64,000 bases of DNA, taken from Thalassotalea hakodatensis (GTDB taxonomy: Bacteria; Pseudomonadota; Gammaproteobacteria; Enterobacterales; Alteromonadaceae). Shown here piece by piece: positions 43,281 through 49,259 of this stretch. The stretch lies in the NCBI RefSeq assembly GCF_030295995.1, contig NZ_AP027365.1, positions 1,178,001-1,242,000 of the forward strand, in the 5' to 3' direction. Position numbers and translations under genes: made by a program. Each line of letters starts with the position of its first letter. The stretch's first letter is position 1. The notes beneath the pieces were generated by a model. That model was given only the letters and a program-made list of their open reading frames with translations. It searched no databases and was not told where the DNA came from.

Positions 43281-43281
43281 C

Positions 43282-43550
43282 TAGAGCGTGTTGATCTTTC
43301 ATGTTTACTTTTGCCGCAATTTGTTTGGTATTTATACAAGGCAACACTTGCGCTGTGTAGTTATTCTACTCCAGTCAAGCGTTAACACAGTAGAAATGCC
43401 AAACAGATACAGCCCGAAGGGTTCAACTAAACGCCTCCTGCTCTTTGTTACTTGAATTAACCATAGAATGACTATGCAATAATCCAAGTGCCGCGATCAG
43501 AAGGCGTTTAATTTGAACAAAACTTAAACAGCAAAGATCAACACGCTCTA
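43282..43550. mobile_element. Main inverted-repeat family, copy A (long form)
   Basis: Ends TAGAGCGTGTTGATCTTT and its inverse at 43533-43550 are bounded by TA. Two internal hairpins occur: GTAG-TTATT-CTAC (43357-43369) and CATAG-AATGA-CTATG (43462-43476). Relative to the copy at 61230 it contains about 90 extra bases that correspond in position to the interior of the copy at 61525. No gene is inside. Confidence 0.85.
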
Positions 43551-43572
43551 ACTAACGCGTAATGCCATAAAA

Positions 43573-43605
43573 GCGTCATAAACAAGTAACAAAGGTGTCA
43601 TTTTT
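43573..43605 (+). promoter_or_regulatory. Candidate PhoB box before the ornithine-lipid synthase gene
   Basis: Three 11-base units follow one another: GCGTCATAAAC, AAGTAACAAAG and GTGTCATTTTT. Their GTCAT/GTAAC cores start exactly 11 bases apart, the spacing of PhoB direct repeats (CTGTCAT consensus). A -10-like TATGTT (43612-43617) lies ten bases after the last core. Confidence 0.6.
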
Positions 43606-43621
43606 CTTAACTATGTTAAGA

Positions 43622-43645
43622 ACATTCCAATAAAGGTTGGAATGT
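43622..43645 (+). promoter_or_regulatory. Hairpin in the leader of the ornithine-lipid synthase gene
   Basis: Perfect 9-base arms ACATTCCAA and TTGGAATGT enclose TAAAGG, ten bases before a TTTTTGGAG ribosome site region. It may act as an operator or affect translation; it is not a good terminator because five bases separate stem and T run. Confidence 0.5.
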
Positions 43646-43668
43646 GACACTTTTTGGAGCTTTAAAAG

Positions 43669-45390
43669 ATGATCCGTGTTGATGATGTTGTCGAACAAAA
43701 CTTACCTAAAATACAACAAACCCCTTGGTTAGCAAAGCCAGTCAAAGCGATTTTAAAAAGCTTATTACACGAAAACAAATTTCAAGATTTTGAACAGAAG
43801 TACCCGCATATTTCAGGGTTTGATTTTGTCGAACAAGGATTATCACATTTAGGTGTCAGTTATTCAGTGCGAGATAACGAGCGTGAGAATATTCCAAGTG
43901 ATGGTCGCGTGGTCATCATTGCCAATCATCCTATTGGTTCTATTGATGGATTAACCTTAATAAAGCTCGTTGCTGATATTCGTCGTGATGTAAAAGTTGT
44001 GGTGAATAACATGTTAATGGCGCTTACACCATTACAGTCTTTGTTATTGCCCGTTAATAATATGGGAGGGCAAACGCCAAAACAAAACTTACAAGCCATT
44101 CAACAACACTTAGCCAATGACAGCGCGATTATCGTTTTTCCTGCGGGTGAGGTTTCACGTTTAAGCCCAAGTGGCGTGAAAGATGGTAAATGGCATAGTG
44201 GCTTCCTACGTTTTGCTCAGCAAGCTAAATCTCCCATCGTACCAGTATATATAGATGCGAAAAATTCAGCGAAGTTTTACGGTTTATCAATGATGTATAA
44301 ACCAGCATCTACGTTGTTGCTCGTAAACGAAATGTTTAACAAGCAGCAAGGTAACGTTGCGATGCGTATTGGGCAACAAATTCCTTACGAAAGCTATCAA
44401 TCAATAGCTGTAGACATAAAAACCAAAACCAAGCTGTTTAAACAGCACCTTTATCGCTTAAAGAAAAGTCGAGCAGGTATTTTTAAAACACAATCTGCTA
44501 TCGCTCCACACGAAGATAGAAAAGCGCTCAAGCATGCAATAAAAGCTTGTGAATACCTCGGTCAAACGCAAGATGGAAAGTGCATTTATCTCCATCGCTA
44601 CCAAGAGAATGATCCTATTATGCGGGAAATAGGTGTATTACGTGAACAGGCATTCCGTGCAGTGGGTGAAGGGTCTAATCTACGTCGTGATATTGATCAT
44701 TTTGACAAGCACTATCTGCATTTAATTTTATGGGATGATGACGAATTGGAAATTGTTGGGGCATACCGGTTTGCAGATACAAACGACGTGATATCAACGC
44801 AAGGCTTAACGGGATTATATAGCCACTCTTTGTTTGATTTTTGTGAAGAGATGACACCTTACCTTGCACAAGGCTTAGAGCTTGGGCGGAGCTTTGTGCA
44901 GCCTAAATACTGGGGAAAACGCAGTTTAGATTATCTTTGGTTTGGTATTGGCGCGTTTATAAATAAATATCCTAAATATCGCTATTTATTTGGTCCAGTC
45001 ACAATCAGCAATAGTATGCCGCAAGCAGCTAAAGAGCTCATGGTATATTTTTACCGTTTATACTTTGGTAGCGAGCAAAATATCGCAACGTCGCGATCAC
45101 CTTTTACCCTTCAACAATCCGCTATTGAACAATTAACACAGCAATTTACCGGACAAGATTATAAAGCGGACTTTACACGCTTAAAACACCTATTGGCGAA
45201 TATGGGTACTGCGATCCCTACATTATACAAACAATATAGTGAACTTACTGAACGTGGTGGTGTGCAATTTCTTGATTTTGGTGTTGATGCTGAATTTGCC
45301 GACTGCATTGACGGTTTAGTGATGCTAGATTTAGCTAAGTTAAAAACTAAGAAACGAGAACGCTACCTTGGAAAAAAGCTAAAACAATAA
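43669..45390 (+). CDS. olsF: Bifunctional ornithine-lipid synthase (OlsF-like)
   Basis: Two acyltransferases are fused in 573 residues. The N-terminal half is a PlsC-type domain: NHPIGSID (86-93) is the H-x4-D motif and FPAGEVSRLSPSG (about 157-169) the second block. The C-terminal half (about 290-500) is an OlsB/GNAT-type N-acyltransferase: LREQAFRAVGEG, LELGRSFVQPKYWGKRSLDYLW and YLFGPVTISN. In Serratia OlsF, such a fusion makes the phosphorus-free membrane lipid ornithine lipid from ornithine and acyl donors. The PhoB-like box upstream agrees with production under phosphate limitation. The fusion is clear; the substrate is by homology. Confidence 0.82.
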   Translation: MIRVDDVVEQNLPKIQQTPWLAKPVKAILKSLLHENKFQDFEQKYPHISGFDFVEQGLSHLGVSYSVRDNERENIPSDGRVVIIANHPIGSIDGLTLIKLVADIRRDVKVVVNNMLMALTPLQSLLLPVNNMGGQTPKQNLQAIQQHLANDSAIIVFPAGEVSRLSPSGVKDGKWHSGFLRFAQQAKSPIVPVYIDAKNSAKFYGLSMMYKPASTLLLVNEMFNKQQGNVAMRIGQQIPYESYQSIAVDIKTKTKLFKQHLYRLKKSRAGIFKTQSAIAPHEDRKALKHAIKACEYLGQTQDGKCIYLHRYQENDPIMREIGVLREQAFRAVGEGSNLRRDIDHFDKHYLHLILWDDDELEIVGAYRFADTNDVISTQGLTGLYSHSLFDFCEEMTPYLAQGLELGRSFVQPKYWGKRSLDYLWFGIGAFINKYPKYRYLFGPVTISNSMPQAAKELMVYFYRLYFGSEQNIATSRSPFTLQQSAIEQLTQQFTGQDYKADFTRLKHLLANMGTAIPTLYKQYSELTERGGVQFLDFGVDAEFADCIDGLVMLDLAKLKTKKRERYLGKKLKQ

Positions 45391-45408
45391 TTATATTAAC
45401 GTGCAATT

Positions 45409-45430
45409 TTGTCATCTTTCGGTCATATAT
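45409..45430 (+). promoter_or_regulatory. Candidate PhoB box before the PAP2 gene
   Basis: TTGTCATCTTT (45409-45419) and CGGTCATATAT (45420-45430) form two 11-base units with GTCAT cores exactly 11 bases apart. The distance to the ATG at 45451 is short, leaving only a tight fit for a -10 box (GATAAG at 45435), which weakens the call. Confidence 0.5.
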
Positions 45431-45450
45431 TCACGATAAGGTAGAGCATT

Positions 45451-45966
45451 ATGACAGTACTTGAAGCGCTATATCAGGTAGATTTACGGGTACTTCTATG
45501 GTGCAGGAAATCGCGTTATTACCCGCAATTTATCGCCTTTGTTCGGAGCCTGTCAAAAACAGGTGATGGCTATATGCAAGGCTTATTTCCCTTGGTTTAC
45601 TGGGGATATAACCCTGATTCCGGACAAACATTTCTTTTACTTGCATGCCTTACTTTTGCTTTTGAACGACCTATATATTTTTTACTAAAAAACATACTTA
45701 AAAGACGAAGACCACCAGAGGTGGTGCCTGACTTTTTTTCTCTGGTAAAAGCCGCGGACCAATTTAGTTTTCCGTCTGGACACACTATGGCAGCCTTTGC
45801 GTTAGCAGGACTTGCAACTATTCACATTGGCAGTGCTGCTTTTCCACTTTATATTTGGGCTACTTGCATTGGTATATCTCGTGTAGTGCTAGGAGTGCAC
45901 TTTCCTTCTGATATCATTGCTGGAGCATTACTTGGTAGCCTAATTGTGATAGGAGTTGTGCTTTAA
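45451..45966 (+). CDS. PAP2-family membrane phosphatase
   Basis: A 171-residue membrane protein with all three PAP2 active-site blocks: K-x6-RP in KNILKRRRP, PSGHT and SRVVLGVHFPSD. Several hydrophobic helices surround them. PAP2 enzymes remove phosphate from lipid phosphates such as phosphatidate, phosphatidylglycerol phosphate or undecaprenyl diphosphate. Its stop overlaps the start of a glycosyltransferase gene by one base, so the pair is one functional unit; phosphatidate to diacylglycerol would supply a glycolipid acceptor (inference). Confidence 0.9.
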   Translation: MTVLEALYQVDLRVLLWCRKSRYYPQFIAFVRSLSKTGDGYMQGLFPLVYWGYNPDSGQTFLLLACLTFAFERPIYFLLKNILKRRRPPEVVPDFFSLVKAADQFSFPSGHTMAAFALAGLATIHIGSAAFPLYIWATCIGISRVVLGVHFPSDIIAGALLGSLIVIGVVL

Positions 45967-46988
45967 TGAAAATCCTTTACGGTATTCAAGCGACAGGCAA
46001 TGGCCATATTTCACGGTCTCGTGTGATGGCTAAGTACTTTAACGAACGTAATATAGATGTGACGTATTTATTATCAGGGCGTGAGAAAGAAAAACTATTT
46101 GATATGGAAGTGTTTGGTGACTTTCTTTATCGGAGGGGCCTGACATTCGTTACCCATCAAGGAAAAATAGATCATTGGCGAACGATAAAAACCAATAATA
46201 TTATTGAATTTGTCAATGATATTCGCACACTTGATGTAAAGCAGTACGATTTAGTGATCACTGATTTTGAACCTATCACCGCCTGGGCTGCTAAATTATC
46301 TGGTGTAAAATCATTAGCGATTGGCCATCAATATGCCTTTGGTGAAAACACTCCGATTACGGGTGGCAATGTATTAGCAAGTGGTATTTTAAAGTACTTT
46401 GCACCAGCAAAACAGTCGATAGGGCTACATTGGGCTCGTTACAATAATAACGTATTGCCGCCTATTATTGATGTTAGGTTAACACGTTCGGCACAAAAAG
46501 GGCCGGTATTAGTGTATTTACCGTTTGAAGATCAACAAACGGTTCTGAAAATGTTAAACAGCGTTACAGCGTACCAGTTCGTTCAATACTCTCAAGAGTT
46601 AACAGATAGTGAACAAGCAAATGTGCAAACGCGAACAACGAGTTATCAAGGGTTCAAAGAAGATTTAAAGCGTGCAAGTGCAGTCATTTGTAATAGCGGC
46701 TTTGAATTAAATAGCGAATGTATTCATTTAGGCATTCCTATTCTTACTAAACCCATCGCTGGACAAATGGAGCAAGAATCGAATGCGCTGGCATTAGAAC
46801 AGCTTGGTTATGGTAAAGCGGTTAGTGCGCTTTCGAGTACAGTCGTTGAACAATGGTTAGTGAATTTACCACCACAAACACGAACTACCTTTCCAGATGT
46901 TGCTCAATTAATTGTCAATTGGTTATCGCAAGACAATGCGAACCACACTATTGATGACTTTACTGCTCAAGTATGGAAGCAGCATTAA
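45966..46988 (+). CDS. MJ1255/VC2487-family glycosyltransferase
   Basis: A 340-residue GT-B-like protein: MKILYGIQATGNGHISRSRVMA (glycine-rich loop of the acceptor domain), DLVITDFEPITAWAAKL, and in the donor domain VICNSGFELNSECIHLGIPIL with KPIAGQMEQESNALALEQLGYG. This matches the MJ1255/VC2487 family, related to MurG and diacylglycerol glycosyltransferases. Substrates are unknown. Translational coupling to a PAP2 phosphatase suggests a lipid acceptor. Confidence 0.85.
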   Translation: MKILYGIQATGNGHISRSRVMAKYFNERNIDVTYLLSGREKEKLFDMEVFGDFLYRRGLTFVTHQGKIDHWRTIKTNNIIEFVNDIRTLDVKQYDLVITDFEPITAWAAKLSGVKSLAIGHQYAFGENTPITGGNVLASGILKYFAPAKQSIGLHWARYNNNVLPPIIDVRLTRSAQKGPVLVYLPFEDQQTVLKMLNSVTAYQFVQYSQELTDSEQANVQTRTTSYQGFKEDLKRASAVICNSGFELNSECIHLGIPILTKPIAGQMEQESNALALEQLGYGKAVSALSSTVVEQWLVNLPPQTRTTFPDVAQLIVNWLSQDNANHTIDDFTAQVWKQH

Positions 46989-47155: not shown

Positions 47156-47515
47156 ATGACAACTCAATGGCAGGCTGATAAGCCTATCTATTTGCAGTTA
47201 TATCAGCAAGTAGTTGGACGAATTCTTGATGGATATATTCAAGAAGGGGAAGCACTTCCTTCTGTGAGAAAGGTAGCTGCACAGTATCAAGTTAATCCAA
47301 TGACCATTTCAAAGGCATATCAAATGTTGCAGGATGAAAACATTGTTGAGAAACAACGAGGTAAAGGGCTTTATGTTAAAGCTGGCGCTCAAGAAACCAT
47401 GCTTGTACGGGAACGTGAAGTGTTTTTACAAGAGCAATGGCCTGAGATATTACAACAAATAAAACGATTAAAACTTAAACCCGAATCATTGTTAACCACG
47501 GGGGACTCACTATGA
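47156..47515 (+). CDS. GntR-family regulator, YtrA type
   Basis: A 119-residue short GntR regulator: QWQADKPIYLQLYQQVVGRI, EGEALPSVRKVAAQYQVNPMTISKAYQMLQDENIVEKQRGKGLYV, then a short helical tail. YtrA-type regulators lack a large ligand domain and repress ABC exporter operons in which they lie. It overlaps the following ATPase gene by four bases. Confidence 0.93.
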   Translation: MTTQWQADKPIYLQLYQQVVGRILDGYIQEGEALPSVRKVAAQYQVNPMTISKAYQMLQDENIVEKQRGKGLYVKAGAQETMLVREREVFLQEQWPEILQQIKRLKLKPESLLTTGDSL

Positions 47516-48369
47516 GTGCGGTAGTGTCACTAAAACAAGTATCAAAGTGTTATAAAAATACGAAAGTTGTTGATAATGTAGATTTAACTGTTGAAAAAGG
47601 ACAGATCCTCGGTTTAGTTGGGCCTAATGGAGCAGGTAAAACTACCTGCTTACAGGCAATGTTGGGGCTAATTTCTTACCAAGGAGAAATTGACATTCTC
47701 GGTTTCGAACCCAGAAAGAACCGCGCGAAAATGCTAGAAAACGTCGCTTATATTGCTGATGTAGCAGTGCTGCCAAAATGGTTAACTGCAGCACAAGCGA
47801 TTAAATATATGGCGGGGGTTCATCCAAGGTTTAATGCAGATAAAGCGCGTACTTTTTTATCTAAAACAAATATTAATGAGTCAAGCAAAGTAGGTACATT
47901 GTCTAAAGGCATGATAACGCAACTACATTTGGCATTGATTTTAGCGTTAGATGTATCGGTGCTTATCTTAGATGAGCCAACTCTCGGTCTAGACATTTTA
48001 ACGAGACGTCAATTTTATAGTCACTTACTCGAAGACTTTTACTCCGAAGAGAAAGCGATTGTCGTGACAACACACCAAATAGAAGAAATTGAGCACATTT
48101 TAACGGATGTTGCTTTTATTCAAGATGGCAACATTATTATTGCAGAAAGTGTTGAACAGATTAAAGACAGGTTTAAGCTTGTTGCTGTTTCTGATGAATG
48201 CCAAGAGCTGGCATCTTCTATGTTGCCGTTATGTACGAATCGTTTAATGGGGATCACAACCATGTTATTTGATCAGCACTCACGGGAACAGCTGGAAGCA
48301 GTTGGAAAAGTATCATCGCCAAGCTTAGCGGATATTTTTGTAGGCGTAATGGCCAAGGAGGTGTACTAA
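47512..48369 (+). CDS. ABC transporter ATP-binding protein
   Basis: A 285-residue ATPase: Walker A VGPNGAGKTT, Walker B VLILDEPTLGLD and the switch histidine in TTHQIEE. The signature reads LSKGMITQ rather than LSGGQ, a variation usual in this exporter group. It pairs with the permease that follows (one-base overlap). The YtrA-regulated class exports peptides, antibiotics or other envelope-active compounds; no substrate can be assigned. Confidence 0.92.
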   Translation: MSAVVSLKQVSKCYKNTKVVDNVDLTVEKGQILGLVGPNGAGKTTCLQAMLGLISYQGEIDILGFEPRKNRAKMLENVAYIADVAVLPKWLTAAQAIKYMAGVHPRFNADKARTFLSKTNINESSKVGTLSKGMITQLHLALILALDVSVLILDEPTLGLDILTRRQFYSHLLEDFYSEEKAIVVTTHQIEEIEHILTDVAFIQDGNIIIAESVEQIKDRFKLVAVSDECQELASSMLPLCTNRLMGITTMLFDQHSREQLEAVGKVSSPSLADIFVGVMAKEVY

Positions 48370-49259
48370 TGAACATGCACTCTTTACAAATGAATATACA
48401 AAAAGAATTATGGGAATATAAAAGAATATTTGTATGGTTGCCGGTAATTCTAGCTTCGCTAATAGTATTGATACCAGTGCTTAATTATATTCTCGGAGAC
48501 GGCTTACCAATTAACTGGCAGCAACAGCTGAACAGAATTAGCCAACAGCAAGATAACATGTTGTTTTCGCAAATAGTGTTTGGTTTTATTTCTGCATTAT
48601 TTGCTCCTTTTATGATTGTTGCGTTTATTGTGCAACTTTATTATTTCACCGCATGTTTTTTCGATGAAAGACGAGATTTATCTATCGTTTTTTGGCGTTC
48701 ATTGCCAGTACCAGACAGCCAAACCGTCGGTGTTAAATTGCTTGTTGGTGCGATTATTTTACCTGCCATTTTTATGTTAGCAGCAACGATAGTGTTATTG
48801 TTATTTGTGTTAGTAGCATTGATTGTATGTACGGTCTTATCTGTTAGTCAAGATATTGATATATGGGGCTTATGGTTTTCAGGTGAATGGCTCAGTAATT
48901 TTCTTATTACTTGGAGCAGTTTGTTACCGCTTAGCCTGTGGTTGTTACCTGTTTATACTTGGTTAATGTTGACGTCTATATATGCTAAAAAAGCCCCCTT
49001 TTTATTGGCGATTTTACCCGTTACTATTTTAGTGATCGTTGAAGCAATTATTGTTGAATATTTCAATTTAGCTTCACCGTATTTTACTGTGATGCTTGTC
49101 AATTATTTTGACTTTTCTAACGCTATAACCGGTCAATATACATCCATCTCAGCTGTTCCGATTAACGCAATAATGAGTAAGGTAACTGTGGGAACATTTG
49201 TGTTAGGCGGAAGCTTTATTTATGCCACTTATTGGTTGAGGGTAAATAGAGGCCAATAA
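48369..49259 (+). CDS. ABC transporter permease
   Basis: A 296-residue membrane protein with about six hydrophobic helices (near 25-45, 70-92, 130-160, 180-205, 215-235 and 270-288) and no catalytic motifs. The N-terminus NIQKELWEYKRIFVWLP is characteristic of ABC-2-like permeases. It overlaps the ATPase gene and is closed by a terminator. Confidence 0.88.
   Translation: MNMHSLQMNIQKELWEYKRIFVWLPVILASLIVLIPVLNYILGDGLPINWQQQLNRISQQQDNMLFSQIVFGFISALFAPFMIVAFIVQLYYFTACFFDERRDLSIVFWRSLPVPDSQTVGVKLLVGAIILPAIFMLAATIVLLLFVLVALIVCTVLSVSQDIDIWGLWFSGEWLSNFLITWSSLLPLSLWLLPVYTWLMLTSIYAKKAPFLLAILPVTILVIVEAIIVEYFNLASPYFTVMLVNYFDFSNAITGQYTSISAVPINAIMSKVTVGTFVLGGSFIYATYWLRVNRGQ

Follow-up and report, generated by a model that had tools for sequence, protein, structure and literature searches.

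Two described systems lie closest to the locus considered here. In Vibrio cholerae, control of the ornithine lipid synthase OlsF (VC0489) by PhoB is already published (Barbosa 2018, as cited in passages of PMC12186959 and PMC13157583), and the remodelling of membrane lipids by PlcP together with the glycosyltransferase Agt is treated in passages of PMC4796936, PMC8231724, PMC8528852 and PMC9239053. We analysed a stretch of 64,000 nucleotides from Thalassotalea hakodatensis (hereafter the window; G000:C1:1178001-1242000 of a single-contig genome of 4.28 Mb) in which olsF is followed by genes for a PAP2-family phosphatase and a glycosyltransferase (GT) other than Agt. We propose, at a probability of roughly 0.72, that this is a PhoB-controlled lipid-remodelling locus in which OlsF would make ornithine lipid and the GT would glycosylate diacylglycerol in the place of Agt, the diacylglycerol coming from PlcP and probably also from PAP2.

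The locus is a genuine block, with olsF and the PAP2-GT pair each standing behind PhoB-type direct repeats:

43561..43601, + strand: Pho boxes upstream of olsF, an array of four units 11 bases apart (GCCAT at 43564, GTCAT at 43575, GTAAC at 43586, GTCAT at 43597)
43669..45390, + strand: olsF, bifunctional ornithine lipid synthase of 573 amino acids, acyltransferase plus GNAT (NF052615, PF19576, PF13444)
45408..45429, + strand: Pho box before PAP2-GT, two exact cores 11 bases apart (GTCAT at 45411, GTCAT at 45422)
45451..45966, + strand: PAP2-family membrane lipid phosphatase of 171 amino acids (PF01569; KX6RP, PSGH and SRX5HX3D motifs)
45966..46988, + strand: GT-B glycosyltransferase of the MJ1255/VC2487 family, 340 amino acids, proposed diacylglycerol glycosyltransferase (TIGR00661, PF13528)

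The names that the first-pass annotation gave to these genes (OlsF, PAP2, glycosyltransferase) hold. OlsF scores 882 bits against the NCBIfam equivalog NF052615, whose cut-off is 620, with its two halves assigned to PF19576 (residues 18-267) and PF13444 (324-424), and its predicted product is ornithine lipid. PAP2 belongs to PF01569; the GT reaches 209.3 bits against TIGR00661 (curated cut-off 195.9) and is above the cut-off of PF13528 as well. The start of the GT and the stop of PAP2 share one base, 45966, and we infer that the two are co-transcribed.

In the mechanism that we propose, low phosphate would lead PhoB to bind the promoters of olsF and PAP2-GT. OlsF would then make phosphorus-free ornithine lipid, while the GT would glycosylate diacylglycerol with a nucleotide-sugar as donor, giving a phosphorus-free glycolipid; a protein of the MJ1255/VC2487 family (PF13528) would in this way do the job that Agt, a GT4 enzyme, does in the PlcP-Agt pathway. 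Diacylglycerol would be provided by PlcP, encoded elsewhere in the genome, with PAP2 as a probable second source, its substrate then being phosphatidate or some other phosphorylated lipid.

The case for PhoB control begins with the boxes themselves. The array before olsF matches 17 of 20 unit positions, and no other site in the window, whichever the strand, reaches 16; its best 22-base site begins 108 bases 5' of the olsF ATG, and 40 order-1 resamples of the window's + strand gave a mean of 0.0 for an array of this kind. The PAP2 box is the sole GTCAT-N6-GTCAT on the + strand of the window. GTCAT cores at 11-base spacing had been claimed before both units, and the two at PAP2 are indeed there; the three claimed at olsF are four, only two of them exact. 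The whole genome has 10 occurrences of the strict pattern and 5 of its reverse: 4 pairs lie in long open reading frames, 1 is intergenic with the wrong orientation, and 5 are correctly oriented before a gene, these being phoB itself, the window PAP2 and three others. The boxes of those three (G000:C1:2992543, 2999856 and 4189386; L005, L006 and L009) stand immediately 5' of their genes in the right orientation, and the genes behind them, which we take to be a cluster that includes an ExbB/TolQ-like gene, a protein of 562 amino acids that looks secreted and a ChrA-like transporter, are candidate members of the Pho regulon.

A count of 10 against 5 is too weak alone, and we therefore built a matrix from the regions upstream of phoB at 30 loci (own genome and relatives), taking the best core match of each, which yielded 24 distinct sites. 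The phoB gene of the window genome is preceded by GTCATAAAATTGTCAT, and in all 30 phoB promoters the best site holds 8 to 10 of 10 core positions, compared with 6 to 8 for the reversed pattern. Trained as it was on sites chosen by core match, the matrix owes nothing to the two loci in the window but does build on the GTCAT idea. With this matrix the olsF box scores 19.4 and ranks first of the ~128,000 positions on both window strands, a score that none of six shuffled windows reached; the PAP2 box, at 8.9, ranks third. A score like that of PAP2 is expected ~5 times per shuffled window (per-position rate 3.8e-5) and ~0.0015 times in PAP2's 60-base gap, meaning that the weight of this box comes from its position in the gap and from its conservation. 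Both sites are 11-base direct repeats like those of phoB's own promoter, strong at olsF and moderate at PAP2.

We followed conservation in a 118-genome sample of the organism's family (hereafter the family) and in the best 80 of 593 confirmed GT matches (the wider loci), a few of which belong to the same family; each region was compared with order-1 resamples of itself to give p-values, for relatives that are not independent of one another. In the window genome and its relatives, 25 of 29 olsF genes have a box with p<=0.05 in the 150 bases upstream, compared with 3 of 29 for the reversed pattern; a thirtieth locus, L043, which starts 211 bases before the gene, was skipped. A box also precedes plcP at 12 of the 17 OlsF loci with a recognised plcP start. 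For PAP2-GT, 54 of the 76 family GT genomes with PAP2 directly upstream, own genome included, have a significant box. When the test was rerun with new random draws the count was 56 of 76, and the controls gave 10 of 76 for the reversed pattern, 11 for the opposite strand, 3 for the interior of PAP2 and 1 for -500..-350. PAP2 starts in the count of 54 are first possible codons, so that for some long calls (>200 amino acids) the region taken as upstream is probably displaced, which may have lowered the count. These genomes fall into 37 genera, 30 of which have at least one significant case and 25 of which have a significant box in their first-listed member; among the 63 PAP2-GT pairs from the best 80 loci, 46 boxes are significant and 4 are in the reversed control.

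Since the PAP2 box is not rare by itself, its recurrence in relatives is the evidence. Both boxes are kept there, which was a check that the first-pass annotation had named, and its view that both transcription units look PhoB-controlled is borne out by boxes that recur 5' of the same genes at rates above the controls. It is very improbable that the repeats arose by chance and that the three genes are ordinary housekeeping neighbours: such an account could draw on the genome-wide count of the strict pattern, on the ~5 PAP2-like scores per shuffled window and on the fact that within the family it is in the window's genus alone that OlsF and GT directly adjoin, plcP, olsF and PAP2-GT being more loosely clustered within 7 kb in G031 and 9 kb in G108, but it has to contend with the recurrence of both boxes and with the PhoB control of OlsF reported for Vibrio (in part of PMC12186959). 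We accordingly predict with high confidence that olsF and PAP2-GT are under PhoB control.

Some features adjoin the block or its boxes. A MITE-like (miniature inverted-repeat transposable element) sequence of ~270 bases with inverted ends, at window positions 43281-43551, ends ~10 bases 5' of the olsF box, and is one of 11 near-full copies in the genome (>=89%, that is, at least 89%, over ~270 bases) among 66 matches. In G021 the box before olsF is kept although the bases 5' of it differ. Downstream of the block, window positions 47156-49259 encode three proteins, namely a GntR-type regulator, an ABC ATPase and one that has no Pfam match.

Co-occurrence and neighbourhood support the association of the GT with PlcP and OlsF. 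Among the 118 family genomes, 82 have the GT, 74 a full-length OlsF, 59 PlcP and 58 all three, and none of the 59 PlcP genomes lacks the GT (Fisher 1e-14); the OlsF figure is the full-length part of 95 matching genomes, with partial or weak matches (~30% identity) excluded and G081, where the gene is in two overlapping frames, counted once. No PlcP was found in 23 family genomes with the GT, 13 of which are also without full-length OlsF. In 45 of the 58 family genomes holding both, plcP lies directly 5' of olsF, at 42 to 294 bases. The association extends to a sample of 369 genomes of the class, where 9 are GT-positive at E 1e-40 and PlcP is found in 8 of these 9 versus 96 of the 360 others (p 2e-4).

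Among the best 80 wider loci, OlsF is no more than 5 kb from the GT at 4, namely L153 from the window's own species, L163 from Zhongshania, and L211 and L221 from Pseudomonadales, with PlcP present too at L163 and L221. PlcP is equally close, at no more than 5 kb, at 14 of the 80, and at L220 plcP and the GT are separated by one base. PAP2 is not adjacent to the GT at 17 of the 80, several of which have a calcineurin-like phosphoesterase upstream. The phosphoesterase of L207 is 52% identical to that of a Sinorhizobium meliloti gene whose surroundings include acyl-homoserine-lactone synthase and LuxR-type genes and which by its position we take to be SMc00171, the tested PlcP; the four calcineurin-like phosphoesterase copies that were tested fall far under the LpxH cut-offs. 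We rejected a simple swap of PAP2 for PlcP as the sole reading: of the 14 loci with PlcP near the GT, 7 have PAP2 as well and 7 do not, and G365 and G439 carry PlcP, PAP2 and GT in one cluster. Between plcP and the GT, a gene for a patatin-like phospholipase is present at L159, L165, L169, L173, L215 and G439 (L258), which are Nitrosomonas-type and similar loci; the label comes from Pfam at L159 and from a similar protein start at the other five, and the product is possibly a further lipid-recycling enzyme.

The usual consumer of the diacylglycerol that PlcP is known to produce is Agt. Using as query the GT4 gene directly 3' of plcP in G253, at E 1e-25, a level at which any close GT4 counts, we found Agt in 0 of the 118 family genomes, the window genome included, and thus in none of the 59 that bear PlcP; the same query matched 100 of the 369 class genomes. 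A user of the diacylglycerol was therefore missing from all 59. Among PlcP-positive class genomes, an Agt match is present in 1 of 8 with the window-type GT versus 83 of 96 without it (p 2.6e-5). The best reading of these genome comparisons is that the GT stands in for Agt, and diacylglycerol is its proposed acceptor, an assignment that we consider likely.

The structure of the GT is compatible with other acceptors. Its model (predicted local distance difference test, pLDDT, 93.8) matched GT-B folds in Foldseek, with small-molecule glycosyltransferases at the top and MurG and a sterol glucosyltransferase among the matches, and a sequence search for a solved relative returned one match, an unrelated chaperone at E 0.07. 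The literature yielded no tested function for the TIGR00661/PF13528 family; VC2487 of V. cholerae is a putative GT with a ChiS chromatin immunoprecipitation (ChIP) peak upstream (in the part of PMC11856585 that concerns it). These points would fit a phosphate-starvation change of the envelope in which the acceptor is, for example, an undecaprenyl-linked or surface sugar, which we regard as unlikely, given that PlcP was never found without this GT in the family (59 of 59), that it adjoins the GT in several lineages and that Agt was not found in the 118 genomes. Our GT alignment (A1) comprises 25 sequences; L023 was omitted for a stop in frame, and near-identical sequences by choice.

PAP2 stands directly 5' of the GT in 76 of the 82 family GT genomes and at 63 of the best 80 wider loci, a tight pairing that suggests a common pathway. 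All three catalytic motifs are present in 75 of the 76 family proteins, and the motifs together with the fold identify a lipid phosphatase: the model (pLDDT 92.9) has Bacillus subtilis PgpB (5jki) and LpxE (6ebu) as its closest folds, and the top solved match of the profile is LpxE 6ebu (E 1e-21). The active site of this class is expected on the periplasmic side of the membrane, and the GT, with its GT-B fold, should use a cytoplasmic nucleotide-sugar. PAP2 is for these reasons, and for the substrates of its nearest solved relatives, the weak step of the mechanism, and we see even odds that it supplies the diacylglycerol used by the GT. LpxE and B. subtilis PgpB are reported to act on other lipid phosphates, LpxE on lipid A, undecaprenyl pyrophosphate and phosphatidylglycerol phosphate (in passages of PMC6581854). 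PAP2 may likewise dephosphorylate one of these three and so spare phosphate in another way, with the GT using PlcP diacylglycerol or another lipid, so that the two proteins would be co-regulated and not successive steps. We give this a sizeable minority chance; the 7 of the best 80 wider loci with PlcP near the GT and no PAP2 agree with it, but the tight pairing speaks for a shared pathway, and with no PlcP found in 23 of the 82 family GT genomes, 20 of which have PAP2, it would need another source of diacylglycerol.

At L026, L027, L030, L031, L161, L162 and L202, which represent some of the genera, no PAP2 was found before the GT, and the gene directly 5' is presumably thymidine-kinase-like; no good box was found before the PAP2-less GT in the four family loci tested. 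At G020:C5:61055-62076 the GT is broken into two frames that overlap, and the PAP2 before it (L152) has an altered third motif, perhaps a decaying copy.

The first-pass annotation had described the whole as a PlcP-independent route. The window genome has a PlcP homologue of its own (G000:C1:595906-596643, 49% identical to the L207 PlcP), not beside the GT and behind an ispB-like gene, and family PlcP was found only in GT genomes; independence of PlcP is therefore not supported for this genome. Such a route may exist in those 23 family genomes that have the GT but gave no PlcP match to a single query at E 1e-20 (one of them, G076, is 84% complete): 20 have PAP2, and 14 of those 20 have a significant box. 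A broader proposal is that MJ1255/VC2487 proteins are an unrecognised class of diacylglycerol glycosyltransferases replacing Agt in many gammaproteobacteria and in Nitrosomonas, with PAP2 supplying diacylglycerol from phosphatidate in a phosphate-induced route able to run without PlcP, as in the 20 of 82 family GT genomes that have PAP2-GT and in which no PlcP was found; we hold this tentatively, at somewhat less than an even chance.

Several observations weigh against the remodelling locus as we propose it. The PAP2 box is only moderate: the training sites score 23.7 to 31.4 and this box 8.9, a value expected ~5 times per shuffled window. Of 76 PAP2 upstream regions 22 fail the box test, two of the controls, reversed pattern and opposite strand, come out above the expected 4 (10 and 11 of 76), and the Aeromonas caviae PAP2-GT locus (L234) has no box scoring >=8. 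The plcP gene of the window genome is without a significant box (p 0.18), as is that of two other genomes of the genus (0.13 to 0.16). Co-occurrence of PlcP and GT may partly follow phylogeny because all 118 genomes are of one family, and the class sample has only 9 GT genomes; at a stricter Agt level the class genomes without this GT show a match in 51 of 96, and the exclusion then has only p 0.06. No PAP2 was found before the GT at 6 of the 82 family loci. For the GT itself, the fold search singles out no lipid acceptor, its top matches being small-molecule glycosyltransferases, and the ChiS peak upstream of VC2487, in the relevant part of PMC11856585, hints at another control in V. cholerae.

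If the proposed remodelling holds, the window bacterium is probably able to build membrane lipids without phosphorus, as marine bacteria do that lower their phosphorus demand by exchanging phospholipids for phosphorus-free lipids. The widespread GT family TIGR00661/PF13528 would gain a candidate function open to testing, and the 59 PlcP-bearing family genomes in which no Agt was found a candidate user of diacylglycerol. PAP2 would be a candidate for the PlcP-independent supply of diacylglycerol that the glycolipid still present in a Pseudomonas plcP mutant has been taken to suggest (in a passage of PMC8528852). For the PAP2-GT pair we found no paper in the open-licence literature.

The window compares with the known systems as follows. 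With V. cholerae VC0489 it shares OlsF, ornithine lipid at low phosphate and PhoB dependence, predicted in the window; it differs in that olsF adjoins PAP2-GT, no glycolipid arm being mentioned for V. cholerae in the passages concerned. The lipid identification described in part of PMC13157583 names only phosphatidylethanolamine, phosphatidylglycerol, cardiolipin and ornithine lipid, so that glycolipids could be missed. PAP2 has the compact membrane phosphatase fold and motifs of LpxE and B. subtilis PgpB (YodM), and is here paired with a GT. A passage of PMC9239053 mentions 'another putative DAG glycosyltransferase' (DAG, diacylglycerol) by plcP in the type Ia methanotrophs Crenothrix and Methylobacter; that protein is likewise a non-Agt GT near plcP, and in Methylobacter L220 a single base separates plcP from a PF13528 GT that follows it, so the methanotroph GT may be of the same family as ours. 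The passages compare it with a B. subtilis enzyme and give no family, and the word PAP2 appears nowhere in that paper. From the PlcP-Agt system of SAR11, roseobacters, Pseudomonas, Agrobacterium and Methylosinus the window differs in having a GT of PF13528/TIGR00661 and not an Agt of GT4, in the PAP2 partner, and in the place of plcP, which is not beside the GT and stands before olsF in 45 of 58 relatives; it shares with that system a Pho-type control, predicted in the window, a PlcP in the genome, a GT expected to act on diacylglycerol, and ornithine lipid alongside.

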